NCBI GenBank assembly: GCA_021299385.1
Contig: JAJTGZ010000004.1
Coordinates: forward strand, 1-64,000
Origin: Phycisphaeraceae bacterium
GTDB taxonomy: Bacteria > Planctomycetota > Phycisphaerae > Phycisphaerales > UBA1924
DNA: 64,000 nt
Direction of reading: 5' to 3'
Position numbers and translations under genes: made by a program. Positions 4,601 to 50,321 of the stretch are shown one piece after another; within the stretch, counting starts at the first letter, position 1, and each line of letters opens with the position of its first letter. The notes below the pieces were generated by a model that made no database searches, was not told where the DNA came from, and saw only the letters and a list, made by a program, of their open reading frames with translations.

Positions 4601-5407
4601 ATGGCCGAGCAGGAAAAAAAACACGACGCGGAGGCCCACAACGCGGAGGCCCACAACAAGGAAGAGGGCCACAAGAAGCACAAGAAGCACCACCCCCACC
4701 GGCACGAAGAGCACGAGCACGAGGAGGGGTGGATCGTCAGCTTTGCCGACAACGTCCTGCTGATGATGGGCTTCTTTGTCATCATGCTGGCAATGAACAT
4801 GGGTACAAAGGGCGTCCCCGTGACCTCGCCAGAGGCCGAGGACCGGATCGCCGATCTTGCCATCGCCGTGCGCGCCGGGTTCAACAACCCGCTGGACATG
4901 ACCAGCACCAAGCCCGAGGACCAGGCCCTGATCCGGCGGATGCGCCAGCGCATCACCGACGGCCCCATATCGACCCCCGGGCCGGAGGGCAAGGACTCGT
5001 CGCCACAGACCATCCGCCCCACCAACTTCCACGGCAGCGACGGGATCGTCGAGTTTGACCAGGAGTCGGCCGAGATCAACGAGTTCGGGCATCGCACGCT
5101 CAAGCAACTGGCCGAGCGCATCAAGGGCAAGCGCTGGATGGTGGAGATTCGCGGGCACACCAGCCGGTTTGAGACCTGGCGCGACGCACAGAAATCACGC
5201 GACCTTTCCTATAAACGCGCCTACGCCGTCGGCGAGGCGCTGGTGGGGTTGGGTGTCAAGTGGGACCAGCTCCGCCTGGTCTCTAGCGGGGACGCGGCGT
5301 CTGCCGTCGGCCGCACGCGTGCGGCCGAGGATGCGCGCACCAACCAGCGGGCCGAGGTGCTGATCCTCAAAGAGGCGATGCCCGAGGACGTCTACATGCA
5401 ACCCTGA
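4601..5407 (+). CDS. motB: flagellar motor stator protein MotB (OmpA-type peptidoglycan anchor)
   Basis: A 268-residue partner of MotA. A very polar His/Lys/Glu-rich N-terminus (residues 1-42) leads into one membrane helix, WIVSFADNVLLMMGFFVIM, in which Asp50 corresponds to the essential proton-carrying aspartate of MotB. The C-terminal half is an OmpA-like peptidoglycan-binding domain: FDQESAEINEFG, VEIRGHTS and the RAYAVGEALVGLGV helix. The cytoplasmic tail is unusually His-rich (about ten His in 40 residues), which could bind metal or sense pH; that is speculation. A possible plug helix lies just after the membrane segment. The gene follows motA with 36 bp between them and ends 197 bp before a convergent gene; nothing recognisable was seen in that gap. 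Confidence 0.9.
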   Translation: MAEQEKKHDAEAHNAEAHNKEEGHKKHKKHHPHRHEEHEHEEGWIVSFADNVLLMMGFFVIMLAMNMGTKGVPVTSPEAEDRIADLAIAVRAGFNNPLDMTSTKPEDQALIRRMRQRITDGPISTPGPEGKDSSPQTIRPTNFHGSDGIVEFDQESAEINEFGHRTLKQLAERIKGKRWMVEIRGHTSRFETWRDAQKSRDLSYKRAYAVGEALVGLGVKWDQLRLVSSGDAASAVGRTRAAEDARTNQRAEVLILKEAMPEDVYMQP

Positions 5408-5604
5408 CGCCGATCGGTGCGCATGACCACAAACTTGCGACCAGAAATGGAGATGCGCCACGATGCCCCAGGAACCACTCGGCGGGGTGGGGTGGACCTG
5501 TGAATCCTCCAAACCTCCGACGCGGCAGCCGGGCTGTAAACGTCGCCGTGGGGGTGGCGGGGGGCTTTGGACTTTGGGATCGACGGGGTTGTGCGCGCCG
5601 GGCA

Positions 5605-6612
5605 TTATCCGGGCTTGCGGCCAAGTGCGAGCGAGAGCGTTTGCAGGATGCTCGAGCGGCCGGCGAAGTCTTCGATGGCCTTGGTCGCGCCGGGGCCGAT
5701 GAAGCGCGGGGCCAGGGCAAGCCAGTACGGCCCGGTGAGGAGGAGTCCGGCTGTGAGGAGCACGGCCGTGGCCTTGGCATACGCCAGGCGCGTGCGTGGT
5801 CTGCAGTGTGTTGCGGTGTTGGCGGGCGCGGCGTTGTGCCCGCACTCTGGACAGGGAGCGGTTGGGTTTGCGCGGGTGTAGCCGCAGGTGGGACAGGAGT
5901 TGGCGTCGGCAAGCCTTCGGCGTGCGGCGCGAGTGCAGCGGAGCATCAACCAGCCGTAAAGGAGCAAGGCGCCGAGCGTGACTAATGCGGCTCCGTAGCG
6001 GTTGTAGACAATCGCGGCGGGTGCATCCGGGTAAATCCAGTACGACGACTGGTACAGCTGCGATGCTGAGAAGGGCAGATAGAGTTTGACAGGGATCAGG
6101 TTCTGAGAACTCGAACCTTTCATGGCAAAGACGTTCATCTTCTGCCACTGATCGGCGTAGCCCGTGCTAAGGAGCAAATAGAGCACAAGGACGCTGGCGG
6201 TAAGCCACGCCGTCGGGATGGCCGCGGCGGTGAAGACCTTGTGTGCGGTCGTGGCATCGGGGTCACGTTGCAGTTCGATCAGCACACGTAGAGCAACGAG
6301 GTGCAAGATGCAGGCGAGGGCACCGAGCATCGCTGCGGTAAAAACAACCGTTACCCAGGGGGACAAGATCCACGGATCACCCGTCGGGGGCCAGAGCGGT
6401 TCACCGCCGGGTGAGGAGCCTTTAACGCTCCAGGAGCCAATGGTAAACACGCCGCGGGGGAGGGTCGTCAGTATCTTATCAAAGGTGTTTGCAACCACGG
6501 GCCTGAGGGGATCAGCGGAGATGATCTGGTGGATCACAAAAGCCGTGGCCATGGCCAGCCAGACCATGGCCACGGAGGTCAATACTGCTCGTATGGCTTG
6601 GAGGCGTTTCAT
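5605..6612 (-). CDS. zinc-ribbon integral membrane protein of unknown function
   Basis: 335 residues. Hydrophobic segments are visible at about 10-30, 85-108, 130-150, 205-225 and 285-305. Between the fourth and fifth lies a cytosolic zinc ribbon, CPTCGYTRANPTAPCPECGH (two CPxCG knuckles). Membrane proteins with a ribbon of this kind are common in planctomycetes and have no assigned function. The ATG overlaps the stop codon of the upstream gene by 4 nt (ATGA), so the two are translationally coupled and probably work together. Not recognised beyond this; the evidence for a real gene is the motif, the membrane pattern and the coupling. Confidence 0.75.
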   Translation of the reverse strand: MKRLQAIRAVLTSVAMVWLAMATAFVIHQIISADPLRPVVANTFDKILTTLPRGVFTIGSWSVKGSSPGGEPLWPPTGDPWILSPWVTVVFTAAMLGALACILHLVALRVLIELQRDPDATTAHKVFTAAAIPTAWLTASVLVLYLLLSTGYADQWQKMNVFAMKGSSSQNLIPVKLYLPFSASQLYQSSYWIYPDAPAAIVYNRYGAALVTLGALLLYGWLMLRCTRAARRRLADANSCPTCGYTRANPTAPCPECGHNAAPANTATHCRPRTRLAYAKATAVLLTAGLLLTGPYWLALAPRFIGPGATKAIEDFAGRSSILQTLSLALGRKPG

Positions 6613-7697
6613 GGGCAGTCGCTGGTTTGAAGCAAGTACCAGTAATCACCCGGTGCAGGCGGGGTCGGTGCGGCCGGCGGGGGCGAGCACGGCTCTACGG
6701 TCGTTGTATATTCATATAAAGTGCAAACTGTCGACTGAACACCGGTCGCGCATCGAGAACAAGCAAGCCAAGTTCGGCCACTTTCATAATAATCAGTCCA
6801 AATGAGGCAACGCTTCCAAGTATATATGCACGCGTTGCCGCCAAGTAATGGTGATGGCCCTGAGACGAGCGTCGCTGGTCCAGGAGTGCCGAGAGCCATA
6901 TTCACTACTGCCACTTGCACACACGAACAAAAATAGGGATCAAAAAAATCAATAATTCCTGATACTAATGCACTCCCGGGCATAAGGGTGTACTGAGCCT
7001 GGTTGACCGCGTACGTTCCAAGATTGTTCAAAAAAGCCTGACCGTCGTTCCGGCTCAGTTTCGGGCTTAGGCCCGGCGAGGCCTTGTAGCCGGAATCGAC
7101 AAGAAACTCGACGACCTCCTCGGGTTGTTGCACCGCCTCCACCAGCGCGAGGGTGGGGTCAGACGCGAAGAGGCCTTTGACCATCGCCTCGGGCGCGACG
7201 GCGAGTGTTGCGTTGTACTGCTCGGTGTGGCAGGAGAACTTGACCGAGCGAGCAAAGGTGTCGTTGCCGAGTCGGCCTTTGACCCAGTGGATCGCGCCGG
7301 TGAGGTTGGCCTCTTGCCAGCCAAAGCTTTTCCAGGAATCGTCGGGCTGGCGTTCGATGAACATGAGTTTGACGTTCAGGCCGATGGCACCCTGGTCGGT
7401 GCACTCGGCAAGGAACCCGACGACCTTGTCGTTTTTCGCGTTGACGGCTGGTTGAAAGGTCCAACCCAGGATGTTCTGTTGCTGCTGGACATTCCACCCG
7501 CGCGGGAGGGTTTCGATGCCGTTCTGGGGCACCCATGCCGTTGTGCTGGCTGCGGTCGTTGCTGTCGCTCTAGCTTGCCCTTTGGTCGTTGCTGTTGCTG
7601 TGGCTTGCCCTGTGGTGGTTGTGATCGCACCTGTCGCTGGCGGCATGGCGACCAAGCCGAGCAGAAGCACTGAGGCAATGGTCAACTGCTTGAGCAA
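6609..7697 (-). CDS. secreted protein with Thr/Ala-rich N-terminus and Cys-rich tail, unknown function
   Basis: About 362 residues from a TTG at 7697. A signal peptide is clear: LLKQLTIASVLLLGLVAMPPATGA. It is followed by a low-complexity Thr/Ala stretch (TTTTGQATATATTKGQA). A middle region of unknown fold (WNVQQQQNILGWTF ... FSCHTEQYNATLAV) leads to a tail with about nine Cys, including FCSC and CSRC, and a Pro-rich segment before the end. The start is uncertain: the frame is open up to 8066, with an ATG at 7865, but that longer form would run through a 19-nt G tract and give a 50-residue unstructured leader before the signal peptide. The last roughly 300 bp are clearly lower in GC than the neighbours. 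It overlaps the next gene downstream by 4 nt. Function unknown. Confidence 0.6.
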   Translation of the reverse strand: MLKQLTIASVLLLGLVAMPPATGAITTTTGQATATATTKGQARATATTAASTTAWVPQNGIETLPRGWNVQQQQNILGWTFQPAVNAKNDKVVGFLAECTDQGAIGLNVKLMFIERQPDDSWKSFGWQEANLTGAIHWVKGRLGNDTFARSVKFSCHTEQYNATLAVAPEAMVKGLFASDPTLALVEAVQQPEEVVEFLVDSGYKASPGLSPKLSRNDGQAFLNNLGTYAVNQAQYTLMPGSALVSGIIDFFDPYFCSCVQVAVVNMALGTPGPATLVSGPSPLLGGNACIYTWKRCLIWTDYYESGRTWLACSRCATGVQSTVCTLYEYTTTVEPCSPPPAAPTPPAPGDYWYLLQTSDCP

Positions 7698-7766
7698 GCG
7701 GATTGACCAAGGTCTTGCGGCGGCGCGCTCATCGACCCTATCTCGGGGCGGCGTGTGTTGGTGGGT

Positions 7767-7785
7767 GGGGGGGGGGGGGGGGGGG
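7767..7785. repeat. 19-nt homopolymeric G tract
   Basis: An uninterrupted run of 19 G on the plus strand (C on the sense strand of the secreted-protein gene), 70-88 nt upstream of the TTG at 7697 and inside the possible longer reading frame from 7865. Runs of this length slip in replication and sequencing. Confidence 0.9.
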
Positions 7786-8064
7786 ACAGGTTCACAGGAG
7801 GCTCCTTGTCTGGATTGGCCGGGTGCGTTGTCGGCACGGTGGGCCAAGCCTTTGCCCGGGCGCATCACGGCGTGCCCGTTGGCCGGCCATCGAACCACTC
7901 GACGGCAGGTGGAGCATACTGGAAGTTCACTTCCTTTGCAAGGGGAATTCTTTTTGTGGATAGCCGGTGGATAACTTTTTCTTCCGTGCCGGGTGCGGTG
8001 TAAGGGTGTAGGGGGTGCGGCGGGGGATTTGGATCGGTTTTGGATGTTGTGCGCCCGAAGCAGC

Positions 8065-8103
8065 AAACCCCACCCCTGCCCCTGCCATCGGGGGAGGGGT
8101 TCT
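8065..8103. repeat. CCCCACCCCTGC...GGGGGAGGGG dispersed palindrome, copy 1
   Basis: AAACCCCACCCCTGCCCC followed by ATCGGGGGAGGGGTTC; an inverted repeat shared with 16219-16256 and, in opposite orientation, 47773-47822. It lies in the 446-bp stretch 7698-8143, which otherwise holds only the G tract, T/G-rich sequence around 7940-8010 and no supported gene. Confidence 0.7.
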
Positions 8104-8143
8104 GAAGAAGCGGCCCTGTTGGAGAAGGGTTGTGATGAAAGGA

Positions 8144-9562
8144 TCAGTTGCCGAGGTTGATGGTGTTTTTCCCGGCGTCTTTAGAGTGGTAGAGGTTTGC
8201 GTCGGCGGCTTTGAGCAGGTCGGGGCCGGTGAGGCCGTCCCAGGGGAAGGTGGCTAGGCCTGCTGAGACGGTCAGTGCGCCGGCGGCTTCTGTGCCGAGT
8301 TTGGGGAAGCGGGCGTCGGCGATTTGTTTGCGGAAGCGCTCGGCGATGAGCTGGACGCTCTGCGGGTGGCGGGAGCCGAGCTCGCGAGGGCCGGCTGGTT
8401 CGTAGAAGACGACGACGAACTCATCGCCACCGATGCGGCAGACGCGGTCGTCGGGTCGGATGACCGAGCGGAGGAGTTTGATGATCTGGACGAGGATTTC
8501 GTCGCCGGCGGGGTGGCCGAAGCGGTCGTTGAAGGTTTTGAAGTTATCGATGTCCAGGACCATGACCGTGAGCATGTGGCGTTTGGTTGCTGATTCGCGG
8601 ATGGCGGCGTCGAGGAAGCAGTCGAGGTATCGGCGGTTATAGGCGCCGGTGAGTTCGTCGGTGATGGAGTCTTGCCGCGCTTTGCGGAGGGTTGCTTGGA
8701 GGGTGAGCCAGTGTGCTAGCCAGGGTGCGGCGTGCTCGAGGTGGTGGGCTTCGAGCGTGGGGCTGGCGAGCAGGGCGGGTGCGACACCTTGGAGCACGAC
8801 CGGGACGCCGTGGGGTGGGCGGGGCGTGGTGGTGGTGTCGGGAGCGGGGATGAACATGACATCGGCGCGGGCGACGCGGCGGCGTATGGCGTCGAGTGCG
8901 AGCGGGAGGATGTCTTGGTCGTCAAGGAGTGCCTGGAGGATTTGCCGGTCGTCGCCGAAGGACCAGGTGCCGGGTGTGGTGGGGCGGTGCGGCTCGGGCG
9001 CGCTGGTGGGCGTTGCGGGCCAGGCGCGGGCGGCGGGTGTGGTGGTGATGCTGGGGATGGTGGTCGGTGGTGGTGCTGAGGTTGGTGCTGGGGATGCTTG
9101 GTTGGCGAAGACGACCTGTTGCGTGATGCGGCCGATGGTGGAGTAGAACGGTGGCGGGGCCTGTGGGGTTGGGGTGGGTGGTGTGGTGAGTTTGGCGAGG
9201 AGCGCGCGGAGGGTTGGGCCGTCGGTTCCTGGGGGGATGGTGCCGTCGAGGTTGCTGGTGGTGTGGCCGTTGGTGTGGGTGTTGCTGGTGGCCAGGAGTG
9301 TGATGGCGCTGGGCTGTATGACTTTGATCGCCTGCTGGAGTTCGAGCGTGGCGGCGGGGTCGGCGGCGAGGTCGGGGTCGAGGATGACGGCGGTGTGGTG
9401 TGGTGAGTCGGCGTCGATGGGGTCGGCGAGCTCGCCGAGGGCGTCCAGGGGGGTTCGTGCGCGGATGAGTTCGATGCCTGGGTCGCGGCGGAGGGTGCTC
9501 TCTAGGCCCGTGCGGCCGGCGAGGATCACGCGGAGGTTGAGGTTGTCGGCGATGGGGGGCAT
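8144..9562 (-). CDS. diguanylate cyclase with degenerate receiver-like N-terminus
   Basis: 472 residues. The C-terminal GGDEF domain (about 303-470) has the intact active site GGDEF at 378-382, the start motif DxLTGAYNRR (DELTGAYNRRYLD), FKTFNDRFGHPAGDE for nucleotide binding, and an intact inhibitory site RPDD at 369-372, five residues before GGDEF. It should make cyclic-di-GMP from two GTP with product inhibition. The first 120 residues (LRVILAGRTGLESTLRRD ... HTAVILDPDLAADP) resemble a receiver or atypical alpha/beta domain, but a clear phosphoacceptor set is not visible. A Pro/Thr-rich linker and a helical middle region connect them. It is soluble. It sits last in the minus-strand run with ftsW and murG, 24 bp after a small unknown gene, so output may be tied to envelope growth. 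Confidence 0.85.
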   Translation of the reverse strand: MPPIADNLNLRVILAGRTGLESTLRRDPGIELIRARTPLDALGELADPIDADSPHHTAVILDPDLAADPAATLELQQAIKVIQPSAITLLATSNTHTNGHTTSNLDGTIPPGTDGPTLRALLAKLTTPPTPTPQAPPPFYSTIGRITQQVVFANQASPAPTSAPPPTTIPSITTTPAARAWPATPTSAPEPHRPTTPGTWSFGDDRQILQALLDDQDILPLALDAIRRRVARADVMFIPAPDTTTTPRPPHGVPVVLQGVAPALLASPTLEAHHLEHAAPWLAHWLTLQATLRKARQDSITDELTGAYNRRYLDCFLDAAIRESATKRHMLTVMVLDIDNFKTFNDRFGHPAGDEILVQIIKLLRSVIRPDDRVCRIGGDEFVVVFYEPAGPRELGSRHPQSVQLIAERFRKQIADARFPKLGTEAAGALTVSAGLATFPWDGLTGPDLLKAADANLYHSKDAGKNTINLGN

Positions 9563-9586
9563 GGTGTTGTTTATACGGCTGGCGTG

Positions 9587-10138
9587 CTAGCGGGGTGCGT
9601 CGCGGCCCAGGAGCATGCGGAGCTCTTCGGGGCTGAGGGTGTCGTCGTCGTTGTTGGCGTCGGCTGGCGTGTGGTGGTTGGGTGGGGCGGGGGTGAGTTT
9701 GAGGGGTGGGTGGGATGTGGGAGTTGGCGCGGGGGTTGGAGTAGGAGTTGGTGGTGCGCCCCAGTTGACGATGTCTTGCGGTTGCAATGGTCGCAGCGAT
9801 TGTGTGCCGGCGGGGTCATAGACCCAGCAGCGGGCGCGGGGGGCGTATTGCTGGATGGCCAGTGCGGTTTGTGCGGGGTCGATGAGTGCGGCGGGTTGGC
9901 AGAAGATGACCAGGACGCCGAGGGTGTTGTGTGCGCTTGCGTGCGCGGCGCAGGCGTGGGCCATGGTCAGTAAGGAGGAGGTGGAGGTGGAGACGGGGAT
10001 GCCACGCTTGGCGAGGGAGGCGAGCAGTGGCGCGGGCGCGGGGGCACCGGCGGGGGACCAGACAACGGCGTGCTGGCGGGGTGTGCCCGGTGCGGGCGGG
10101 GGTGGGTTTCGGCTTGTGCTCTGCGTGCCGCTGTGCAT
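9587..10138 (-). CDS. small alpha/beta protein with Pro-rich linker, unknown function
   Basis: 183 residues, not recognised. The first 115 residues look like one alpha/beta unit: AVVWSPAGAPAPAPLLASLAKRG, then LGVLVIFCQPAALIDPAQTALAIQQYAPRARCWVYDPAG. The strand-Pro/Asp-helix pattern resembles the N-terminal region of the diguanylate cyclase just downstream. A Pro/Thr-rich linker (about 128-155) is followed by an acidic NNDDDTLSPEELRMLLGRD tail that reads as a short helical motif, possibly a protein-binding peptide. It lies between murG (38 bp upstream) and the cyclase (24 bp downstream) in the same direction. Reality as a gene rests on its position, its compact intergenic spacing and this residual pattern. 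Confidence 0.6.
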   Translation of the reverse strand: MHSGTQSTSRNPPPPAPGTPRQHAVVWSPAGAPAPAPLLASLAKRGIPVSTSTSSLLTMAHACAAHASAHNTLGVLVIFCQPAALIDPAQTALAIQQYAPRARCWVYDPAGTQSLRPLQPQDIVNWGAPPTPTPTPAPTPTSHPPLKLTPAPPNHHTPADANNDDDTLSPEELRMLLGRDAPR

Positions 10139-10176
10139 GGGATAAGTCTACAGCGCGGCGAGGTCAGGTAGTGGTT

Positions 10177-11313
10177 TTATAGGACGTTTTGGGCAAGATT
10201 TTGGGCTATTTGCAGGGCACCGTCGGCGGGGCCGAGGTTTTCGGCGGCGGTGCGCATGGCGGCGAGGGTCGCCGGGGTCTTCAGGAGGCGCAGGAGGGCC
10301 TGCCCGAGGGGGCCTTGGAGATTGGATTGGTCGTCGATGAGGTCGTCGGCGATCTCGGCGGCGTGGGCCTGCACGAGGGTTTGGGCGTTGAAGCGTTGGT
10401 GCTGGTCTTTGTGGTGCGGGTAGGGGGCAAAGAGCGTTGGGGTGCCCGAGGCCCAGGCCTCGGCGACGGCGCCGGCGCCGGCACGGCTGAGGGCCAGGTC
10501 CGCAGCGGACCACCACAGGGGGAGCTGCTCAGTGAAGGGAAGCACCTGGGCGCGGATGCCGGCTTGGGTGTAGGTGGTTTGCAAACGCTCGGCGTCGGGT
10601 GCGGAGCCTGTCTGGTGGAGGATTTGCCAGTTGGAGAAGAGTGTTTGGTGGGCTTTGTTTGATGCGAGGTGGTGCAGGAGGTTGTTGAGTGTGCGTGCGC
10701 CGAGGCTGCCACCTGTGATGAGCAGGACGGGAAGGGTGGGGTCCAGGCCGAGGGTGGCGCGGGTGGTGGTGCGGTCGCGCACCTGTCGGGCGGCCCGGCG
10801 GACGATGGGCGGGATGCGTTTCCAGTGCGGGTGGGATGGGGATGCGACGGTGGTGAAGGCGTGCTGGGCGTGCCGGGCGATCCAGCGGTTGGCCTTGCCT
10901 GGCACGGCGTCGATATTGATGAGGGTGATGGGGATGCGTTCGGCGCGAGCGGCCTGCACGGCGGGTGCGGCGACGAACCCGCCGAGGGTGATGAGGTGGA
11001 CGGGGTGTGCGAGTGTGCGTGCCTGCTGGATGATGTGGCGAGTGATGCGGACGCTGGGGGGCCAGTTGCTCAAGAAGCGCCAGAGTTGCCTGGGGGTGAG
11101 GCTGGGGTATTGCGCGGGCAGGGGTGTGAAGGGGACGGCGTGGGGCGTGAGGACTTCGCGGTCGATGGGGCGCGATGAGCAGAGGAAGTGTGCGTCGGCG
11201 CTGGGGACGAGCGTGCGGAGCTCTTCCCAGATAGCCAGTGCAGGGTAGAGGTGCCCGCCGGTGCCCCCGCCGGCGAAGATATAAGTTGTAGGGGGTGCGG
11301 TGGTGGAGGGCAT
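10177..11313 (-). CDS. murG: UDP-N-acetylglucosamine transferase MurG
   Basis: A 378-residue peripheral inner-membrane glycosyltransferase that adds GlcNAc from UDP-GlcNAc to lipid I, giving lipid II. The N-domain glycine loop FAGGGTGGHLYPALA (13-27) and the C-domain GGSLGA and SRAGAGAVAEAWASGTPTL motifs (UDP-binding) are present, with HHKDQHQRFNA following as in the family (usual form DDHQ..NA). Length is normal. It starts 3 nt after the ftsW stop codon, the usual dcw-cluster order, so the two are cotranscribed. No murC or murD follows; the next gene is an unknown protein, which is unusual. Confidence 0.93.
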   Translation of the reverse strand: MPSTTAPPTTYIFAGGGTGGHLYPALAIWEELRTLVPSADAHFLCSSRPIDREVLTPHAVPFTPLPAQYPSLTPRQLWRFLSNWPPSVRITRHIIQQARTLAHPVHLITLGGFVAAPAVQAARAERIPITLINIDAVPGKANRWIARHAQHAFTTVASPSHPHWKRIPPIVRRAARQVRDRTTTRATLGLDPTLPVLLITGGSLGARTLNNLLHHLASNKAHQTLFSNWQILHQTGSAPDAERLQTTYTQAGIRAQVLPFTEQLPLWWSAADLALSRAGAGAVAEAWASGTPTLFAPYPHHKDQHQRFNAQTLVQAHAAEIADDLIDDQSNLQGPLGQALLRLLKTPATLAAMRTAAENLGPADGALQIAQNLAQNVL

Positions 11314-38760: not shown

Positions 38761-38942
38761 GGGTGGTTGTAGGCCGGGCGGGGGTGCGGGTGGGGTAGTG
38801 GTGGGTGGATGGTGCTCCTTCGCGGCGGAACCTAGTATTTCTGGTTGCCGCCGCTGGCGTGCCCGGCCGTGCGCGGGTGCCCGTGCAAGGGGCCTGTGCA
38901 AGGTGTCGGTGCCTCGCCAAGCCCGGCGTTTGGATGGGCACC

Positions 38943-40664
38943 ATGCACGCAGCCTTTGCCGACAAGTTTGAGATGCAAAACCGCCTCTTTGCCGAGCTCT
39001 CTCGGATGTTTGCTCAGGAGGTGCCGTTGTACGACAAGGCCCTGCTTGTCAACAGCCTCTGCAACCGAGCGGTCTGCGACCTGCTCGGGCGTGTGCACGT
39101 CGGCTTTACGATCACCGACGAGCAACTAGAGAAGACCAGCGGCGAACGGCACGGGGCGATCCGCATCGGCCGGAGCGATGAGTACCGCCTGATCGGCCGG
39201 TTCTTTGCCGCCTTTGCGATGGAGCCGCACAACTATTACGACATGTCCAGCGTCGGGGCCAAGAGCCAGCCGATCGTGGCCACGGCGTTCCGCTCGCGCG
39301 TCAACCCCGAGCATCGGGTCTTTTCATCGCTGCTGCAGACCGACTACTTCGACCCGGCGACCAAGGCCCGCATCGAGGGTGTGCTGGCGGGCCGGCAAGT
39401 ATTCTCAGACAAGGCCAAGGCCCTGCTTGACAAAGACGAACGCCAGGGGGGCCTAGATTGGGAAGATGCCAACGCATTGATCGCCGAGGGCGTGGGGAGG
39501 ATTTTCAAGTGGACCGGGCGTGCGCGGGAGCACGGGTTGTACAAGGATTTGTGTGATGCGGGGTTCAAGATCGCCGCGGATATTGCCTGCTTCCAGTCGC
39601 ACCACCTCAACCACCTGACGCCGAACACGTTTTGCATTGACCTGTACACCTCGGCGATGAAGCACTCCCTCGGCGAGATCAACGCGGCGGAGTTCACCGC
39701 CCGAGCGACAAAGGCCCTGGATCGCCTGCTCATCGGGGCCGACCGCGACTACATGCGGCTGTCGTTCAGGCACCTTCGGCAAGAGGAGATCGACGGTTTT
39801 GCGCACGCCAGTGTCGCCCCCGGGATGGTCGCCGAGCTGGCCAAGGCGTTGACGGCTAGGCTCGCGCAGCCCGACCTGGACCTGCGGTCGCTCAAGCACG
39901 CCGGGTTCAAGGACACGACCGAGGGGCCGCCCGAGGGTGTGCCTGTGCTGCTGCGCCAGGACGCCTACAAGGCGCTGACCGAGCCGGTGGTCTTTGAGAA
40001 CGCCGACGGCACGAGCGTGCAGACAACGCACACGGCACGGTTCGGGGAGATCGAGCAACGGTTCTATGCCGCGACACCGACCGGGCGCACGCTGTATGAC
40101 AAGTGCCTGACCGAGGCGGAGGATGCCAAGGAGAAAGACCCCGGCCTGGCCAATCGCAACCCAGCGGCGTATGAGGCGCTCTACGCCAGGCCGTTCGCGC
40201 CGTTCCCCAAAACACTCGGCGACTTGCTTGCGCAGGGGCTGGTCTACGGGCGTTACTCGGCAACAACCAAAGGCATCGCTGATCGCGGCAAGATCAAGAC
40301 AACAAACCTGCACGAACTGGTCCGCCTCGGCTACGCACGCGTCGAGGGGTTGCGCTACGAAGACTTCTTGCCCGTTAGCGCGGCGGGGATCTTCGCCTCC
40401 AACCTCAACCAGTACGGCACCAAGTCAACCGCGGCAAAGAAGCCCGAATACACGCGGGCGATGCTCGAAGAGGTGCTCGGGCGCGCGATCGTCGATGCCA
40501 ACGGGGCATACGCAAGTGTGCACGCGCAGTCGGTGCGAGGGATGTACGCGGATTTAGGCTTGTGGGAGCAGGTGCCCGCGGCGGAACGCTCGGCGATCGA
40601 GCGGGCCTGCGCGGGTGGCCAGGCGGAGGTCGCCCAGCGGGTGCCGCAGGGCGCGCTGGCGTAA
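38943..40664 (+). CDS. HglS/YdcJ-like 2-oxoadipate dioxygenase/decarboxylase (DUF1338) with large insertion
   Basis: 573 residues (ATG 38934 is an alternative). Conserved blocks match the DUF1338 family: ERHGAIR (His70), YYDMSSVG, HRVFSSLL, SHHLNHLTPNT (second metal His near 224), EGPPEGVPVLLRQDAYKAL, THTARFGEIEQRF (Glu369), TPTGRTLYDKCL and YEDFLPVSAAGIFASNL. In Pseudomonas HglS the equivalent His, His, Glu bind iron, and the enzyme turns 2-oxoadipate into D-2-hydroxyglutarate in lysine breakdown. Compared with E. coli YdcJ there is an extra segment of about 90 residues (roughly 237-328, SAMKHSLGEI ... LKHAGFKDTT) between the second His and the EGPP block. No lysine-catabolic neighbour is present; it is divergent from dnaG across 182 bp. 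Confidence 0.85.
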   Translation: MHAAFADKFEMQNRLFAELSRMFAQEVPLYDKALLVNSLCNRAVCDLLGRVHVGFTITDEQLEKTSGERHGAIRIGRSDEYRLIGRFFAAFAMEPHNYYDMSSVGAKSQPIVATAFRSRVNPEHRVFSSLLQTDYFDPATKARIEGVLAGRQVFSDKAKALLDKDERQGGLDWEDANALIAEGVGRIFKWTGRAREHGLYKDLCDAGFKIAADIACFQSHHLNHLTPNTFCIDLYTSAMKHSLGEINAAEFTARATKALDRLLIGADRDYMRLSFRHLRQEEIDGFAHASVAPGMVAELAKALTARLAQPDLDLRSLKHAGFKDTTEGPPEGVPVLLRQDAYKALTEPVVFENADGTSVQTTHTARFGEIEQRFYAATPTGRTLYDKCLTEAEDAKEKDPGLANRNPAAYEALYARPFAPFPKTLGDLLAQGLVYGRYSATTKGIADRGKIKTTNLHELVRLGYARVEGLRYEDFLPVSAAGIFASNLNQYGTKSTAAKKPEYTRAMLEEVLGRAIVDANGAYASVHAQSVRGMYADLGLWEQVPAAERSAIERACAGGQAEVAQRVPQGALA

Positions 40665-43400: not shown

Positions 43401-44411
43401 CTATCGGGTGCCGATCTCGATAAGGTCGCGAACAATCGCCGTGGCCGTCTCCGCCCCGCCGGCGCCGCGCCCGACGAGGGTAACGTCCCCGGCGTTGTGC
43501 ATGGAAAATGTAACCGCGTTCATATTGCGCGGCACGTTCAGCGGTGAATCCACGTCCACCTCCGTCGGGGCGACCAAGAGGCCCCGCTCGCTGATCGAGG
43601 CGATCAGTTTGATCACCTTGCCGCGTGCTCGCGCCTCGCGCACACGCTCGATGGGCAGGCCGCGTATGCCTTGGACAGACACATCGCTGTACGAGCACCC
43701 CTTGCCGACGCCCCCGGCGTGGTTGGCCAGGATGACGAGTTTCATAGCCGTGTCGATCCCGTCGATGTCGTTGCTCGGGTCGGTCTCTGCATAGCCGAGT
43801 TTGACGGCGTGGGCCAGGGCAGCCTCAAACGGCTCGTCGCACTCGGCCATGCGCGAGAGGATGAAGTTGGTCGTCCCGTTGATGATCGCACGGATGCCGG
43901 TGATCGTGTCCCCCGTCGCCAGGCGAGCGGCTAGGGCGAGCACGGGCGTCGCCGCGCCGACGGTCCCGCTATAAGCCAGCGACACCCGGTTGTACCGCGC
44001 CGACTCCAGCAGCGCAGGCATGGCGACGGCCAGCGGGGCCTTGTTCACGCTCACGGCATGCTTGCCGGCACGCATCGCCCCCAGCAGGTGGTCCAGCGCG
44101 GGGCGGGGGTGCTTCAGGTCGCTCGGGGAGGTCTGGACAACAACGTCCGCAGCGGTGCGCAGGACGACGCGCATGGTGTCGATGCGCTGGCCGACGCCCG
44201 GGATATCGCCGACGGACTTTTTCTCTGCCTTGGCCTCCAGCAGCGTCGGCGCATCAAGGCCGGCGGGGGCCAGCGCGCACCCGCGCGAGTCGCAGACGGC
44301 CACCAGGCGTGCCTCGGCGCCGAGGCGGCGCTCAAGGGCCTGCCGCTGCGCGTGCAGCATCGTTGCCAGGGCCTGGCCGACAACACCAAAGCCGATGAGG
44401 ACGATGCGCAC
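43401..44411 (-). CDS. hom: homoserine dehydrogenase (short form)
   Basis: 336 residues from a GTG at 44411, where the NAD-binding strand VRIVLIGFGVVGQALA starts; ATG 44459 adds 16 residues. It reduces aspartate semialdehyde to homoserine. The catalytic core has NKAPLA (Lys), GTVGAATPVL, INGTTNFILSRM and GYAETDPSNDIDGIDTAMKLVILAN, as usual. The C-terminal ACT domain found in many homologues is absent. The loop around 55-85 (LLEAKAEKKSVGDIPG) is as in archaeal-type enzymes. It is divergent from zwf and cotranscribed with lysC. Confidence 0.92.
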   Translation of the reverse strand: MRIVLIGFGVVGQALATMLHAQRQALERRLGAEARLVAVCDSRGCALAPAGLDAPTLLEAKAEKKSVGDIPGVGQRIDTMRVVLRTAADVVVQTSPSDLKHPRPALDHLLGAMRAGKHAVSVNKAPLAVAMPALLESARYNRVSLAYSGTVGAATPVLALAARLATGDTITGIRAIINGTTNFILSRMAECDEPFEAALAHAVKLGYAETDPSNDIDGIDTAMKLVILANHAGGVGKGCSYSDVSVQGIRGLPIERVREARARGKVIKLIASISERGLLVAPTEVDVDSPLNVPRNMNAVTFSMHNAGDVTLVGRGAGGAETATAIVRDLIEIGTR

Positions 44412-44477
44412 GCCCGGTGAATATCGACACAATGCCCGCCGGGCACAACCAAGGCCCATCGCTACACCCCGGCGGTC

Positions 44478-46142
44478 GTGCCGTCTTTACTAGCCCCGGA
44501 GGCTCAAAAGGCCGATAAAGACCCGGTGCATACCGGCCGGCCCGATCTTGTTGTCCCTTCCCCCAGCGCGCTGTTTGCCGACCCGTGCGTGCTGGTCATC
44601 TTCGGTGCCTCCGGCGATCTGACGGGGCGCAAGTTGATCCCCGCGCTCTACGAGCTGGACCGCCAAGGCCGGCTGCCCCAAGGCACGCGCGTCATCGGCA
44701 TGTCGCGCACGCCGATGAGCGACGAGGCCTTCCGCGAGAAGATGGCCGAGGGGGCACGCAAGTTTGCCACGGGCTTTACCGAGAAGCAGTGGTCGGCGTT
44801 TGCTGGCCGGCTCTTCTACCACGCCGGGGACGCGGCCAAGGCCGACGCGATGCCCGGGCTGAGTAAGCGCATCGCCGAGGTCGGCTCGCACGCGGGGCTG
44901 CTGCGCCAGGGTGGGATGCCCAATATCTTGTTCTACCTCTCGGTCGCGCCAAGCCTCTACGAGCAGATCATCGACAACGCGGGCACCTCGGGCCTGGTCG
45001 CCGAGGGGCACCGCTGGTGCACGATCAACGCCGAGGCAACGCCCTGGCAGCGGATCATCATCGAGAAGCCCTTCGGCACCGACCTGGCAACAACCGTGAG
45101 CCTGAACCAGGCCCTCGGGCGCGTCTTCGAGGAAGACGCGATCTTCCGCATCGACCACTACCTGGGCAAGGAACTGGTGCAGAACATCGCCGTGATGCGG
45201 TTTGCCAACGCCATCTTCGAGCCGATCTGGAACCGCCAGCACATCGAGCACGTGCAGATCACCGCCGCCGAGACGGTGGGCGTGGGCAACCGTGCGGCAA
45301 ACTTCTACGACACCGCCGGGGCCTTGCGCGACATGATCCAGAGCCACCTGCTGCAGGTGATGTGCCTGGTGGGCATCGAGCCGCCGAGTGTGTTTGACGC
45401 CGCGGCCATCATGCGTGAGAAGATCAAGTTCCTCAACACCTGCGTGGTGCCTGCCAGCGGGCAGATCCCCAAGATGGCCACGCTCGGGCGCTACGGCCCA
45501 GGCCCCAAGCCCGACGACCGCGCATACGTCAACGAAGAGGGCGTCGTGCCCGACCGCCGAACCGAGACCTACGCGGCAATGAAACTCTTCTTTGACAACT
45601 GGCGCTGGGCCGGCGTCCCCTTCTATCTCCGCTCGGGCAAACGACTGGCGAGCAAACTCACCGAGATCGTCGTGCAGTTCCGCAGCCCGCCGACGAACAT
45701 GTTCCGCAACCTCGGGCCCGACGTGCTCAACCGACCGGCCAATCGCCTCGTCATCGGCATCGCCCCACGCGAGGGGATCAGCCTCCGCATCGAAGGAAAA
45801 GTCCCAGGCTCGGGACTGCACATCGCCAGCGCGCAACTCGACCTGGACTATCAGCAGTCCTTCGGCGGCGAAACAATCGAGGCCTACGGCCCCCTCATCC
45901 TCGACGCCATGCGCGGCGACCGCACGCTCTACAAACACCGCGACGAGGTCGAGATCGGCTGGCGCATCTGCGACCCGTTCATCCAGAACGCAGAACTCCG
46001 CAACTCCATCGCCACCTACGCCCCAGGCACCTGGGGCCCCGACTTGGCCGATGCACTCTTCACCCCCACACCCGGCGGGCCTGGCACCCCAGCCGGGCCT
46101 GGCGCGTGGCACAACCCCACGCCCGACGAGCTTGGCTCATAA
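44478..46142 (+). CDS. zwf: glucose-6-phosphate 1-dehydrogenase
   Basis: 554 residues from a GTG. Oxidises glucose 6-phosphate to the lactone with reduction of NADP, the entry to the oxidative pentose phosphate pathway. Coenzyme loop VIFGASGDLTGRKL (about 40-53), IIEKPFG (Lys), the active-site RIDHYLGKE at about 223-231, and WRWAGVPFYLRSGKRL are all there. The N-terminus has about 30 non-conserved residues; the C-terminus ends in a Pro/Gly-rich tail of 25 residues. 66 bp from the divergent hom start. It is followed 30 bp later by the GH10-like gene. No gnd or pgl is near. Confidence 0.95.
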   Translation: MPSLLAPEAQKADKDPVHTGRPDLVVPSPSALFADPCVLVIFGASGDLTGRKLIPALYELDRQGRLPQGTRVIGMSRTPMSDEAFREKMAEGARKFATGFTEKQWSAFAGRLFYHAGDAAKADAMPGLSKRIAEVGSHAGLLRQGGMPNILFYLSVAPSLYEQIIDNAGTSGLVAEGHRWCTINAEATPWQRIIIEKPFGTDLATTVSLNQALGRVFEEDAIFRIDHYLGKELVQNIAVMRFANAIFEPIWNRQHIEHVQITAAETVGVGNRAANFYDTAGALRDMIQSHLLQVMCLVGIEPPSVFDAAAIMREKIKFLNTCVVPASGQIPKMATLGRYGPGPKPDDRAYVNEEGVVPDRRTETYAAMKLFFDNWRWAGVPFYLRSGKRLASKLTEIVVQFRSPPTNMFRNLGPDVLNRPANRLVIGIAPREGISLRIEGKVPGSGLHIASAQLDLDYQQSFGGETIEAYGPLILDAMRGDRTLYKHRDEVEIGWRICDPFIQNAELRNSIATYAPGTWGPDLADALFTPTPGGPGTPAGPGAWHNPTPDELGS

Positions 46143-46172
46143 GCCACCTGGGCGCGTACGCTGGGGGCACGG

Positions 46173-47774
46173 ATGCACAAGTTCCTGATCCCCAACCTGC
46201 CCGCGTGGACACCGACCCACGCCCACATGGTCGGCCCTGACGACCTGGCCATCCCCAGCGAGATCGTCCTGGCCGGGAACATGATCCAGTGCGTCAAGCG
46301 CGTCGAGGGTGCCGCGGCCTTGGCAATCCAGTACCCCGCACCGGCAGGGATCGGCGGCGTGCTCACGCTCCGCACGCCGCTGCTGCCCGAGCGACGCCAG
46401 CCATACGTCCTGGCCCTCGAACTCGCACGCTTCCAGGTGATGCTGCTGCTGACGAAACTCGAAGAGTGGGCCCTCTTTGAGACCCCAGCGACCGACCCGG
46501 TGATGATCAAACTCGAACAGGCACTCTCGGCCTACACCCACGCGCTGGTCGTCCAGCGCAGCACCGAGGCCGAGGGCGCCGCTCAAGGCGCACTCGCCGC
46601 CGCCATCGACGCAGGCGAAGCACTGGCCCTCTACTCCGCACGCGTCCAGCACCACAAACGCCAATCCGGCGAACTCGCCCGCCTGGCCAACAAGCCCGCA
46701 CCCCAGAGCGCACTGACCGACCACGAAGCCCTCGAAAGCACCAAGCGTGCCGCAGGCTCGGCCGGGGTGATCCTCCCGGGCATGCCCCGCGTCGGCGTCG
46801 CCGTCAACCCCGCGCACTTCAACCCCGCGCTCTGCCAGGCCGTTGCCGAGATCGCCGACTTTGTCAGCGTCCCGATGCGCTGGAGCCAGATGGAGCCGAC
46901 CGAGGGCCGCTACACCTTCACCCCGACGGACCGCTGGATCGAATGGGCGGTAGCCAAGGCAAACCTGCCAGTCGTCGCCGGGCCTGTGCTGGACTTTGAG
47001 GCCGGGTGCGTGCCGGACTTTGCCTATATCTGGGAGCACGACTACGAAACCCTGCGCGACGTGGTCATCGAGCACGTCAAGGCCGTCGTTACGCGCTACC
47101 GCCGCACGGTGCACACCTGGACGATCTGCTCGGGCCTGCACGTCGGGAGCAACTTTGCCATCAGTTATGAGCAGGCCGTAGACCTGACGCGCGTCTGCGT
47201 AACAATCGCCCGCAAGCTGCACCCGGGCGCAAAGGTACAAATCGAGATCAGCCAGCCCTGGGGCGAATACACCGCCGAGGCCTCCGCACGTGCGGCACGC
47301 TCGATCCCCCCGGCAATCTACTGCGACCTGCTCGCCCAGATCGGCCTGGAGATCGACGCCGTCGCCCTCAAGGTGCAGATGGGCTACCCCCAGCCCGGGC
47401 GCAGCACCCGCGACCTCATCTCCTTCTCGGCAATGCTCGACCGCTTCGCCAGCGTCGATAAACCCATCGCCCTCTCGGTCATCGGCGCGCCCAGCACGCC
47501 CGTCCCCTCCGCCCCAGGCATGCCCGCGGCTGGCTCCTGGCGCCGCCCATGGTCCCCACAGCAGCAGGCCGAGTGGCTCGGGAATATCTGCGCCATCGCC
47601 GCCGGTAAGCCCTACGTCCAATCCATCGCCTGGCAAGAAATCATCGACAGCCCAGCACCCTGCGCCCCCCACGGCGGGCTGCTCACACCCCAAGGCCAAC
47701 CCAAGCCCGCCCTCGCCACACTGCAAGCCCTGCGCGCAAGCCTCCGCGGCACCGGCGCACTAGCCGGCGTCTAG
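46173..47774 (+). CDS. GH10-like TIM-barrel protein lacking catalytic glutamates
   Basis: 533 residues, no signal peptide. An N-terminal beta/helical part (about 1-200) precedes a domain resembling glycoside hydrolase family 10 xylanases: ADFVSVPMRWSQMEPTEGRYTFTPTDRWIEWA (about 228-260) is the classic GH10 strand-2 region, and the following strands VVAGPVLDF, HTWTICSG, VQIEIS and VALKVQMGYP fit a barrel. In active enzymes strand 4 ends in NE and strand 7 in the ITELD-type nucleophile; here they read WTICSG (about 315) and IALSVIGAPS (about 430), so both glutamates appear missing. A sugar-binding or structural role is more likely than hydrolysis. Cytoplasmic location is suggested by the lack of a signal. 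It shares direction with zwf; the stop codon touches a palindromic repeat. Confidence 0.65.
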   Translation: MHKFLIPNLPAWTPTHAHMVGPDDLAIPSEIVLAGNMIQCVKRVEGAAALAIQYPAPAGIGGVLTLRTPLLPERRQPYVLALELARFQVMLLLTKLEEWALFETPATDPVMIKLEQALSAYTHALVVQRSTEAEGAAQGALAAAIDAGEALALYSARVQHHKRQSGELARLANKPAPQSALTDHEALESTKRAAGSAGVILPGMPRVGVAVNPAHFNPALCQAVAEIADFVSVPMRWSQMEPTEGRYTFTPTDRWIEWAVAKANLPVVAGPVLDFEAGCVPDFAYIWEHDYETLRDVVIEHVKAVVTRYRRTVHTWTICSGLHVGSNFAISYEQAVDLTRVCVTIARKLHPGAKVQIEISQPWGEYTAEASARAARSIPPAIYCDLLAQIGLEIDAVALKVQMGYPQPGRSTRDLISFSAMLDRFASVDKPIALSVIGAPSTPVPSAPGMPAAGSWRRPWSPQQQAEWLGNICAIAAGKPYVQSIAWQEIIDSPAPCAPHGGLLTPQGQPKPALATLQALRASLRGTGALAGV

Positions 47775-47822
47775 AACCCCTCCCCCAGAACGTTCTGGCG
47801 GGGAGGGGCAGGGGTGGAGTTA
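47773..47822. repeat. CCCCTCCCCC...GGGGAGGGG dispersed palindrome, copy 3
   Basis: GAACCCCTCCCCC, an inner palindrome CAGAACGTTCTG, then GCGGGGAGGGGCAGGGGTGG. It is in opposite orientation to 8065-8103 and 16219-16256 and has a longer loop. Lies between the convergent GH10-like and dehydrogenase genes. Confidence 0.8.
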
Positions 47823-47873
47823 GCACACACAACAATCTAATAAATAGAGACTCGCGCCAGCAGTCACCACCCC

Positions 47874-48920
47874 CTACCGCCGCCAATCCAAAACCACCTT
47901 CCCAAACTGCTCCCCAGACTCCAGCCTCGCAAACCCCTCCGCCCCCCTCGCCGCCGGGAACACACGGTCAACAACCGGCCTGAACCGGCCCGCCCGGTAC
48001 ATCGCCGCGAGCTGCGCAAACTCCTGGTTGCTCCCCATCGTGCTGCCCAATATCCGCAACTGATTCCAGAAAATGCGTGCCAGGTCGGTCGTCGCGTCCG
48101 CACCGCTGGTGCACCCCGGCGTGGCATACACCCCGCCACGGGCCAGGCTCTTGATGCACCACAAGTGCGTCGCCTTGCCCGAGGAGTCCACCGCCATGTC
48201 CACGCCACGACCGCCCGTCAGCGCACGCACCTGCCTAGACCAGTCCGCCCCGGCATCGAGCACGCCTTCATCCGCCCCGAGTGCCTTGGCCGCGTCGAGC
48301 TTCACCTGATGCCGGCTTGTAACAATCACCCGGCAGGCGCGCTCCTTGGCAATCGCCAGCGCGGCCGTCGCCACACCGCCGCCGATACCCGTCACCAGCA
48401 CCACCTGCCCGGGCCGCAACCCACCCTTGCCGACCATCATCGAATACGCCGTAAGAAACGTCAACCCAAACGCCGAGGCCTCGGCCGGGTCGGCCACATC
48501 GCCGATCGACTGCACGTTCGAGACCGGAATATTGAAAACCTCCGCATGGAACCCCTGGTGGTGCTCGCCAAGCAGTTGCACCTCCGGCACGATCGGCTCG
48601 GGTGGGTCCAAGGGCGCATACGCCTCGGGCTGCGCCACCGCCGCGTTGACGATCACACGCTGACCGACCCACGAAGAGGCCACCCCCGCCCCGACGCGCT
48701 CGACAACGCCACACGCATCGCACCCGCTGATCCGCGGGTACGTGAGCTTCAACCCCGGCACGCCACGCCCCACCCACAAGTCCAGGTGGTTCAACGCACT
48801 GCACAGCGTTCGCACCCGGCACTGGCCAGGCCCTGGCTCCGGCGGCTCGGGCCAGTCGCTCACAAACCGCACGGCCTGGGATGGTGTCGGGGACTGCTCG
48901 GCAATGACAACAGCTTCCAT
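47874..48920 (-). CDS. medium-chain dehydrogenase/reductase (quinone oxidoreductase-like)
   Basis: 348 residues. GroES-like N-domain with CSALNHLDLWVGRGVPGLKLTYPRISGCDACGVV and a Rossmann domain with VLVTGIGGGVATAALAIAK for NAD(P). The zinc ligands of true alcohol dehydrogenases are not clearly present: the position of the catalytic Cys is taken by SALNHLD, as in zinc-free quinone oxidoreductases, although some Cys (SGCDAC) are nearby and the four-Cys lobe is missing. Substrate unknown. ATG 48920. It converges with the GH10-like gene and is separate from the pilin-type gene upstream by a repeat-rich 136-bp gap. Confidence 0.8.
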   Translation of the reverse strand: MEAVVIAEQSPTPSQAVRFVSDWPEPPEPGPGQCRVRTLCSALNHLDLWVGRGVPGLKLTYPRISGCDACGVVERVGAGVASSWVGQRVIVNAAVAQPEAYAPLDPPEPIVPEVQLLGEHHQGFHAEVFNIPVSNVQSIGDVADPAEASAFGLTFLTAYSMMVGKGGLRPGQVVLVTGIGGGVATAALAIAKERACRVIVTSRHQVKLDAAKALGADEGVLDAGADWSRQVRALTGGRGVDMAVDSSGKATHLWCIKSLARGGVYATPGCTSGADATTDLARIFWNQLRILGSTMGSNQEFAQLAAMYRAGRFRPVVDRVFPAARGAEGFARLESGEQFGKVVLDWRR

Positions 48921-49056: not shown

Positions 49057-50106
49057 CTAGTTGTTGGCAGCCTGAACCAAGTCATCAAAGTCGCGGATCG
49101 GGTCTGTGCCGTCTGTTGGGAGTCTGATCCCGTTGACCCCATCGCGCCACTTGCGCGCGCCGCTGTCGAGGTTGTTGAGGTAGACCCCATCGCGCCCGCC
49201 GGAGTGGAAGACGAGCGTCCCCCGCGGCTCACCCGGCGTCGGGGGCACCGTGGTGGTGTTGAGGAACGCCGGGTTGGCCAGCAAGACCGCTAGCGCGCCA
49301 TTGGTCCCCCCACCGGTGACGACAAACCGCCCAAGCCCGCTGCCACCGGTGCCGCTGCCGATCAGGCTGCCCGTATTCTCGTCCCCATCATCGTGCTGCC
49401 GCTTGGCCTCGCGTCCCAGTGAGTCTGAACTGAGGTACGTCGCATTAGAGGCCCAGTAGAACCGTGCGGCCTCCTCGCTGTCCGAGTTGATCGCGGCAAA
49501 CTTCGTCCCCTTGCGCGTGTCCGCCGACCAAGCCAAAATCGGCTGCCCAAAGGCATCGATCATGTCGGGCACCTGCCTGTTGTTCTGGTTTGACTCACGC
49601 CCGGCGATCAACTCAAGGTTCCGCTTGTCCGGCGAGAAGTACCCACCCGTCGAGCCAAGATTGACGGGATTGCTCGGGGCGTTGTTCGTCGCACCGATCA
49701 AGCCCAGATCGACGTTCACAACAGCCCCAGGCCCCGGCCCAACACCCGTCAGAATACCCGGCCCCGTCGCGCTTGTTACACCCCCGGCCAGGTCCAGCAG
49801 CAGGTTCTGCATCTGCGAGAACCCCGCCGACACGTTCGTTCCCGCCCCCATCTCCACCGGCGAGAAGTACCCCGGGTTGCGCTTGTTGTCGATCTTGAAA
49901 CGCTGCGACGCCGAGCTGAGGTCCTTGATGATCGCCTGCGTCGCCAGCGTCCGCGCGCTGCTCCGTGCCGCACGCAGGCTCGGGATCAACACCCCGATGA
50001 CGATCGTGATGATCGTCAGCACCACCAGCAACTCGACAAGCGAAAATGCCCGCCCAGTGCTGGTCCGCCCACAACTACGATTACTTCGGCCCATTGATCT
50101 ACCCAT
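49057..50106 (-). CDS. type II secretion/type IV pilin-like protein (prepilin N-terminus)
   Basis: 349 residues. The N-terminus carries a basic leader then GRAFSLVELLVVLTIITIVIGVLIPSLRAARSSA, the class III prepilin signal: cleavage before Phe, with Glu at +5 and a 20-residue hydrophobic stem. The residue before the cleavage point is Ala instead of the usual Gly. A globular part follows with YFSPVEM, DAFGQPILAWSADTRKGTKFAA, and a C-terminus with FHSGGRDGVYLN and FDDLVQAANN, as in planctomycetal 'DUF1559/prepilin' proteins. ATG 50106 is fixed by GGAGG six bases before; ATG at 50112 and 50094 are alternatives. It follows the coiled-coil protein and PQQ gene on the same strand. Confidence 0.8.
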   Translation of the reverse strand: MGRSMGRSNRSCGRTSTGRAFSLVELLVVLTIITIVIGVLIPSLRAARSSARTLATQAIIKDLSSASQRFKIDNKRNPGYFSPVEMGAGTNVSAGFSQMQNLLLDLAGGVTSATGPGILTGVGPGPGAVVNVDLGLIGATNNAPSNPVNLGSTGGYFSPDKRNLELIAGRESNQNNRQVPDMIDAFGQPILAWSADTRKGTKFAAINSDSEEAARFYWASNATYLSSDSLGREAKRQHDDGDENTGSLIGSGTGGSGLGRFVVTGGGTNGALAVLLANPAFLNTTTVPPTPGEPRGTLVFHSGGRDGVYLNNLDSGARKWRDGVNGIRLPTDGTDPIRDFDDLVQAANN

Positions 50107-50112
50107 TTCCAT

Positions 50113-50117
50113 CCTCC
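50113..50117 (-). promoter_or_regulatory. ribosome binding site of the pseudopilin gene
   Basis: Read on the minus strand, GGAGG ends 6 nt before ATG 50106; it decides between three neighbouring ATG codons. The 215-bp gap 50107-50321 otherwise shows nothing recognisable. Confidence 0.6.
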
Positions 50118-50321
50118 GCGAGAAGTCTATAGCCAAACCGCCGCCACACCCTCCCTCGATTCGCCCCAGCGGGCCGTTGGATCCCTCCCAGACCAACGAT
50201 ACGAGTCAGAAATAGTCGCACAAACCGATCATAACCCAAACTTTGTGCCCACACCCAATCAGTTCAGCACGGCCTTAGGAACCCAAGCAGGCCGCGATCC
50301 CCGTGCATTTGCGCTGGCCGT

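Follow-up and report, generated by a model that had tools for sequence, protein, structure and literature searches.

A GH10-fold protein without the catalytic glutamates is retained across the class Phycisphaerae, commonly beside a ComEA-like gene

Introduction

Xylanase inhibitors of the XIP type are pseudoenzymes on the GH18 fold. They likewise present a constrained glycosidase barrel without catalytic residues; the protein reported here differs from them in being derived from GH10, bacterial, encoded by a class-wide core gene, and accompanied by a ComEA-like partner. To our knowledge, no competence system makes use of a glycosidase fold, and a survey of the open-access literature on GH10 pseudoenzymes, planctomycete ComEA, and Phycisphaerae hydrolases yielded no recognizable description of this protein. 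ComEA is presented as a DNA receptor of other bacteria in passages of two papers (PMC3879209; PMC9747964), and a section of a third places uncharacterized families of Patescibacteria near comEA/comEC by gene context (PMC10849945). As described in that section, those families are likewise tied to competence through gene neighborhood, and they are transmembrane and belong to another phylum, unlike our protein (PMC10849945).

We examined one gene in a 64,000-nucleotide stretch of DNA (hereafter the window) from a Phycisphaeraceae bacterium (GCA_021299385.1, contig JAJTGZ010000004.1), to whose family we refer as pseudo-GH10:

46173..47774, + strand: pseudo-GH10 gene, ATG start, TAG stop, 533 aa

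Over aa 202-529 its product shares the (beta/alpha)8 fold of GH10 enzymes (PF00331; AcXyn10A, 8b73; S. lividans Xyn10A, 1v0l). Unlike these enzymes, it lacks both catalytic Glu residues and most -1 subsite residues throughout its family, carries an extra N-terminal domain without a visible signal peptide, and no longer has its strands as the most conserved part. The components are of known kinds (GH10 fold, pseudoenzyme, ComEA-like partner), and it is their combination and class-wide retention that is new to us.

Results

A GH10-Fold Barrel Preceded by an Additional Domain

The initial annotation proposed a GH10-like barrel with a strikingly xylanase-like second strand, and both proposals held up. 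The relevant features are:

46776..47759, + strand: GH10-fold (beta/alpha)8 barrel, aa ~202-529 (model, profile alignment, Foldseek, VIA)
46872..46907, + strand: end of strand 2 and following loop, xylanase-like PMRWSQMEPTEG, aa 234-245, holding W237, E241, and P242
47025..47048, + strand: family motif YIWEHDYE after strand 3, aa 285-292 (alignment)
47253..47270, + strand: end of strand 5, QPWGEY, aa 361-366, aligning with the GH10 YNDY region

Pfam, phmmer, Foldseek, VIA, and profile-profile alignment all recovered the barrel. PF00331 matched aa 234-318 (E 6.9e-7; 29.2 bits versus a cut-off of 22.1), a match that includes the strand-2 segment, and phmmer against PDB sequences retrieved xylanases, along with Kemp eliminases derived from xylanases, at E values as low as 2.1e-7. 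Fold prediction and superposition on GH10 enzymes, which had been suggested as a check, gave a consistent picture. AlphaFold2, supplied with the window protein and 52 homologues, returned a model with mean pLDDT 93.7 and pTM 0.93, for which the top Foldseek match in the PDB was the GH10 xylanase 8b73 (E 7.4e-16). VIA aligned the model to 8b73 with Z 31.1 over 307 residues (rmsd 6.7) and to many other GH10s with Z about 28, among them 1v0l (Z 28.1, 279 residues, rmsd 3.1). A family barrel profile aligned by hhalign to a profile of 28 reference GH10 enzymes (prob 99.2, E 2.5e-19); these references are planctomycete, come from genomes within the class, and were chosen by their catalytic motifs. 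Framework residues of GH10 retained in pseudo-GH10 comprise W237, D253, R308-Y309, W316, Y366, D492, and a PKP near the C-terminus. NCBIfam models gave GH35_fam alone, far under its cut-off, and a PADLOC search returned nothing.

No signal peptide had been reported for the protein, and none was visible by eye: its start lacks a hydrophobic stretch, and the model shows residues 2-5 as a beta strand. From the appearance of the N-terminus we conclude that pseudo-GH10 is probably cytoplasmic. The N-terminal domain, earlier put at some 200 residues, comprises about 195:

46173..46757, + strand: N-terminal domain, aa 1-195, with a small beta part (aa 2-67) and long helices (aa 80-172)
46383..46469, + strand: most conserved stretch of the N-terminal domain, aa 71-99 (53-sequence alignment)

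Modeled alone, this domain reached pLDDT 91.6. It is shared by the family from the first residues, with F4 invariant and M1 nearly so. Its top block is aa 71-100 (mean JS conservation 0.616), and L71, R74, Y78, L80, E83, A85, R86, K95, E97, and W99 are invariant in the 53-sequence alignment; T68, R74, Y78, E83, R86, K95, E97, and W99 are among the most conserved residues of the whole family. We found no relative of the domain among PDB sequences (four matches, best E 0.4) and no clear relative among the Foldseek matches listed (best E 0.064). The best VIA score, Z 6.7 over 85 residues, covers the helical part only and lies within the tool's noise range. Hsp70 substrate-binding domains account for several of the VIA matches (Z 5-6.7, mainly the helical part), and we treat the modeled likeness to the Hsp70/DnaK substrate-binding domain as a common helical arrangement.

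Family-Wide Replacement of the Catalytic Residues

Two sites correspond to the catalytic positions of GH10:

47130..47135, + strand: GH10 Asn-Glu (acid/base) position, here S320-G321 (profile and MAFFT alignments)
47478..47480, + strand: GH10 nucleophile Glu position, here V436 (JS 0.33 in the family versus 0.83 in GH10s)

The initial annotation held that both catalytic glutamates were missing, and the alignments bear this out for the family as a whole. In the hhalign result, GH10 WDVVNE falls on WTICSG at the end of strand 4, placing Asn on S320 and Glu on G321, and the strand-7 TEL falls on S435-V436-I437 (within IALSVIG), placing Glu on V436. A separate MAFFT alignment returned the same columns, with Glu at both in 28/28 GH10s, partly by construction because these were selected by catalytic motifs, and in 0/50 sampled family members. 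Among 116 unique homologues, position 321 is Gly in 100, Ser in nine, Ala in four, Arg in two, and Tyr in one, while Asp or Glu occupies position 436 in none; Glu occurs at position 438, two residues past the nucleophile column, in five of the 116. A glutamate supplied by a shifted register had been named as the outcome that would overturn the claim. Asp and Glu are both absent from aa 312-332 and aa 430-466 of the window protein, and a slight shift in register would therefore recover neither glutamate.

The loss extends beyond the two glutamates. The GH10 Lys, His, Trp, Asn, Gln, and His columns that we take to be -1 subsite residues correspond in the window protein to R236, G270/P271, D274/F275, S320, K400, and Q402, with Lys replaced by R236, GHTLVWH by GPVLDFE, Gln by K400, and His by Q402. 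The retaining chemistry of GH10 has almost certainly been lost. On sequence grounds, pseudo-GH10 would qualify as a pseudoenzyme, being an enzyme fold under constraint whose catalytic residues have been lost across the family.

Conservation Is Relaxed at Several GH10 Sites

Several columns conserved in GH10 have become variable in the family, namely position 436 (JS 0.83 to 0.33), the His column at 402 (0.92 to 0.30), and the Trp columns at 488 (0.95 to 0.33) and 497 (0.95 to 0.23). We also compared strands with helices, a comparison picked in place of a loop test after the region means were known. In GH10 enzymes the strands are the more conserved (0.697 versus 0.558; difference 0.138, P 3e-6), whereas in the pseudo-GH10 family the two are nearly equal (0.532 versus 0.520; difference 0.011, P 0.71), and the family difference ranged from -0.016 to 0.019 in 20 size-matched subsamples of 28. 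Given the relaxed GH10 sites and the missing strand excess, we read the pattern as suggesting that selection on the catalytic center has been lost and selection on the protein body kept. It is compatible with the structural role that had been floated for this protein. Top (strand-end) and bottom loops did not differ in the family (0.482 versus 0.525, P 0.29), a result that cannot decide on a new active site, since the GH10 control has no top bias either (0.563 versus 0.595).

A search for conserved residues marking a new active site had also been proposed, and its outcome was divided. Conserved positions foreign to GH10 do occur at strand ends and in the loops that follow (W287, D290, P440, W456, W460, R413, and D414), and polar residues conserved in the barrel include D290, S320, E365, and D414; however, among 10 homologues from outside the class, S320 is Ala or Thr in four and R413 is His in five. 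The YIWEHDYE motif is strongly conserved within the class and more weakly in deep-class and outside-class homologues. Invariance at such sites is inflated in the 53-sequence alignment, because its 52 loci were fetched by peptide patterns of the window protein that included EEWALFET, PMRWSQME, and YIWEHDYE itself; the 116-sequence set also contains loci found by whole-protein search.

Distribution and Descent

Pseudo-GH10 was found in 60 of 61 relatives. Within the class Phycisphaerae, 289 of 298 genomes have it, among them 229 of the 231 with completeness of 90% or more and contamination of 5% or less. A draw from the phylum gave matches in 49 of 294 genomes; 27 of the 49 lie outside the class, and many of these have both domains. 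The 52 named-relative loci all belong to Planctomycetota groups, mostly Phycisphaerales or Phycisphaerae. Pseudo-GH10 is thus a core gene of its class, apparently single-copy, that is present in part of the other Planctomycetota, and it has no assigned function. In a tree, 50/50 sampled members grouped as a single clade, set apart from the GH10s by a long branch, for which one ancient loss of the catalytic residues would be the simplest reading.

A ComEA-Like Gene Is the Conserved Neighbor

The gene that precedes pseudo-GH10 in the window had been correctly identified as zwf:

44478..46142, + strand: zwf, glucose-6-phosphate dehydrogenase (PF02781, PF00479), 30 bases upstream of pseudo-GH10

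No zwf was found near pseudo-GH10 at any of the 52 other loci searched, which rules it out as a clue to function. The conserved neighbor lies downstream and is a small gene whose product carries a helix-hairpin-helix (HhH) pair and, by eye, what looks like a membrane helix at its N-terminus. Gene clustering placed this ComEA-like gene beside pseudo-GH10 in 43/53 loci (two of them 2-3 kb off), and a profile search found its start less than 1.5 kb past the stop codon in 41/49 named-relative loci, counting loci with 450 or more downstream bases (three further loci were too short). Loci obtained by genome search, a set overlapping the named relatives, carried it downstream in 50/59 cases within the class. 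It was also present in 12/36 remaining loci, all 12 in the class. The next commonest true neighbors by eye, leaving out clusters that only represented alternative frames of genes already counted, were a response-regulator-like gene (18/53 loci) and an mfd-like gene (12), and the clustering of the 53 loci revealed no conserved co-located metabolic gene.

The association has exceptions. No ComEA-like gene adjoins pseudo-GH10 in the window or in the same-genus loci L003 and L055, and the partner is absent from L113 and L141, which belong to one genome of the class. A fragment of a ComEA-like HhH gene does lie in the window genome, at the end of another contig (C99). Outside the class, 18/18 genomes examined (L119-L140) lacked a ComEA-like neighbor; a purC-like gene (by eye) adjoins pseudo-GH10 divergently in 5/12 outside-class loci (L129, L130, L133, L136, and L138). 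In 38 relatives with both genes, defined by a pseudo-GH10 match plus an HHH_3 match of E 1e-10 or better and compared by hand, the strongest HHH_3 match lay within about 1 kb of pseudo-GH10 in 32, the exceptions being the window genome (G000), G003, G005, G007 (about 3 kb), G015, and G041.

Like ComEA, the partner has the HhH repeat described by TIGR00426, together with the apparent membrane helix noted above. Three of five partners passed TIGR00426, the ComEA HhH region (58.4, 57, and 69.6 bits versus a cut-off of 53.1), and the other two fell under it (31.9 and 46 bits); the Pfam model HHH_3 was passed by 3/3 partners scanned. It differs from ComEA in matching the full-length model TIGR01259 only below its cut-off in all five cases (32.6 to 73.8 versus 152.35 bits), and we regard it as a putative DNA receptor.

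Ten class genomes lack pseudo-GH10, namely G008 from the set of relatives and the nine without a match in the class survey. By the partner profile, two of the 10 have a small-frame ComEA-like gene (G300 and G263, where it sits at the end of a contig in G263), and the remaining eight have none or longer-frame HhH matches only. In G300 the gene (L196, 2533-2997) has no pseudo-GH10 match within 2.4 kb; upstream of it, on the opposite strand, is a gene that by eye resembles a glycosyltransferase. Co-absence was given no weight, as most such genomes are incomplete and adjacent genes vanish together.

ComEC (PF03772) was detected in 100/101 class genomes, but as 10/14 control genomes have it too, mere presence carries little information. 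At one locus (L184, genome G107, 5350-10225), comEC, pseudo-GH10, and the ComEA-like gene are consecutive on one strand, with the latter two overlapping by 4 bases and comEC about 0.3 kb away; this row is a possible DNA-uptake operon, judging from its gene layout. At L185 (G110), comEC lies about 7.5 kb from pseudo-GH10 on the same strand. The other loci searched, 67 of them at least 7 kb long, contained no ComEC homologue. A promoter and terminator scan of window positions 44000-48400 found no sigma-70-like promoter and was uninformative on transcription.

Discussion

The catalytic residues of pseudo-GH10 have been lost, while the gene is kept throughout the class and usually stands by the gene of a putative DNA-uptake receptor, which together point to a protein that is probably for binding or scaffolding and not a xylanase. 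In full, our preferred reading is that of a non-hydrolytic pseudoenzyme of GH10 fold with a binding or scaffold role, coupled within the class to a ComEA-like DNA receptor, to which we assign a probability of roughly 0.42. Its components differ in strength. That the role is binding or scaffolding, as opposed to new catalysis, is the likelier of the two; DNA uptake as the process served is a tentative proposal, which we infer from gene order alone.

Such a barrel would no longer cleave glycosidic bonds, and with the N-terminal domain, with which it forms one confidently modeled unit (pTM 0.93) whose body appears to be under selection, it may act as a binding or scaffold unit. Within the class it would be made from the same mRNA as the membrane-anchored ComEA-like receptor and would serve the same process; a cytoplasmic factor that assists DNA uptake or helps to assemble its machinery seems the likeliest form. 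It might place or regulate the uptake machinery, or it might merely share its regulation. Direct contact between the two products is not obvious, because the ComEA-like domain is expected outside the membrane and pseudo-GH10 inside. A stronger version, in which a dead xylanase has become a dedicated DNA-uptake factor and a standing partner of ComEA/ComEC across the whole class, we consider unlikely. The pairing nevertheless provides a concrete entry to DNA uptake in the class, on which we found little literature.

The main rival to a binding or scaffold role is that pseudo-GH10 is still an enzyme, the top of its barrel having been rebuilt around other polar residues (for example S320, H323/N, E365, R413, D414, and D290) to act on some cytoplasmic substrate. 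The strong conservation of W287, D290, P440, W456, W460, R413, and D414 would suit an active site newly formed where the strands end, as would class-wide retention, which is typical of housekeeping enzymes. We nonetheless judge it somewhat unlikely, given that two of the candidate residues vary outside the class (Ala or Thr for S320, His for R413), that strands do not exceed helices in conservation as they do in active GH10s, and that no metabolic gene is conserved nearby. Persistence of hydrolysis in its original form, by way of a shifted residue, is scarcely credible: the Glu at position 438 in five of the 116 homologues could be cited in its favor, but the window protein offers no acidic residue around either site, and the acid/base, nucleophile, His, and Trp sites have all been replaced.

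The genomic context permits two further explanations. The pair may be an old operon without shared function, with the ComEA-like gene simply carried along on the transcript of a pseudo-GH10 that performs a core task of its own. Homologues in the 18 genomes outside the class do without a ComEA neighbor, and the window genome keeps its HhH gene fragment on the end of another contig, as this would predict. However, the other side of pseudo-GH10 has been shuffled while the pair has stayed (43/53 loci versus 18 for the next true neighbor), and a pair kept amid shuffling ordinarily points to selection on the pair; we hold this explanation to be distinctly unlikely. A sensor of sugars or metabolites tied to glucose-6-phosphate metabolism is more improbable again. 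The initial annotation had raised a sugar-sensing role from the position of zwf, and in the window zwf does lie 30 bases upstream on the same strand; a PFK-like gene (by eye) is also found upstream in 6/53 loci. Against this, zwf is missing from the surroundings of all 52 other loci, and what is conserved instead is a partner of DNA-binding type. Of that earlier interpretation, then, the pseudo-xylanase with an extra domain stands and the sugar link does not. A non-hydrolytic binding or scaffold protein coupled to the ComEA-like receptor continues to be the reading that we prefer.

Pseudo-GH10 also bears on genome annotation. Because the protein scores above the Pfam threshold for GH10, automated annotation can tally it among the xylanases. 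Of 150 class genomes, 132 had a PF00331 match above the cut-off, and in 61 there was a match better than 1e-25; in 71 of the 150 there were weak matches only (best E above 1e-25, a threshold of our own), and the four weak matches that we compared (G074, G081, G125, and G194) all fell on the pseudo-GH10 gene. GH10 CAZyme counts in the class may therefore be inflated.

Three other genes of the window gave matches of separate interest:

38805..40664, + strand: strong PF07063 match, 2-oxoadipate dioxygenase/decarboxylase (E 1.3e-87)
49057..50196, - strand: prepilin-like, PF07963 N-terminal methylation motif at 20.8 versus a cut-off of 21.2 bits
51258..55583, - strand: 1441 aa, with a PQQ/BamB-type beta-propeller match to PF13360 (E 7.8e-13)
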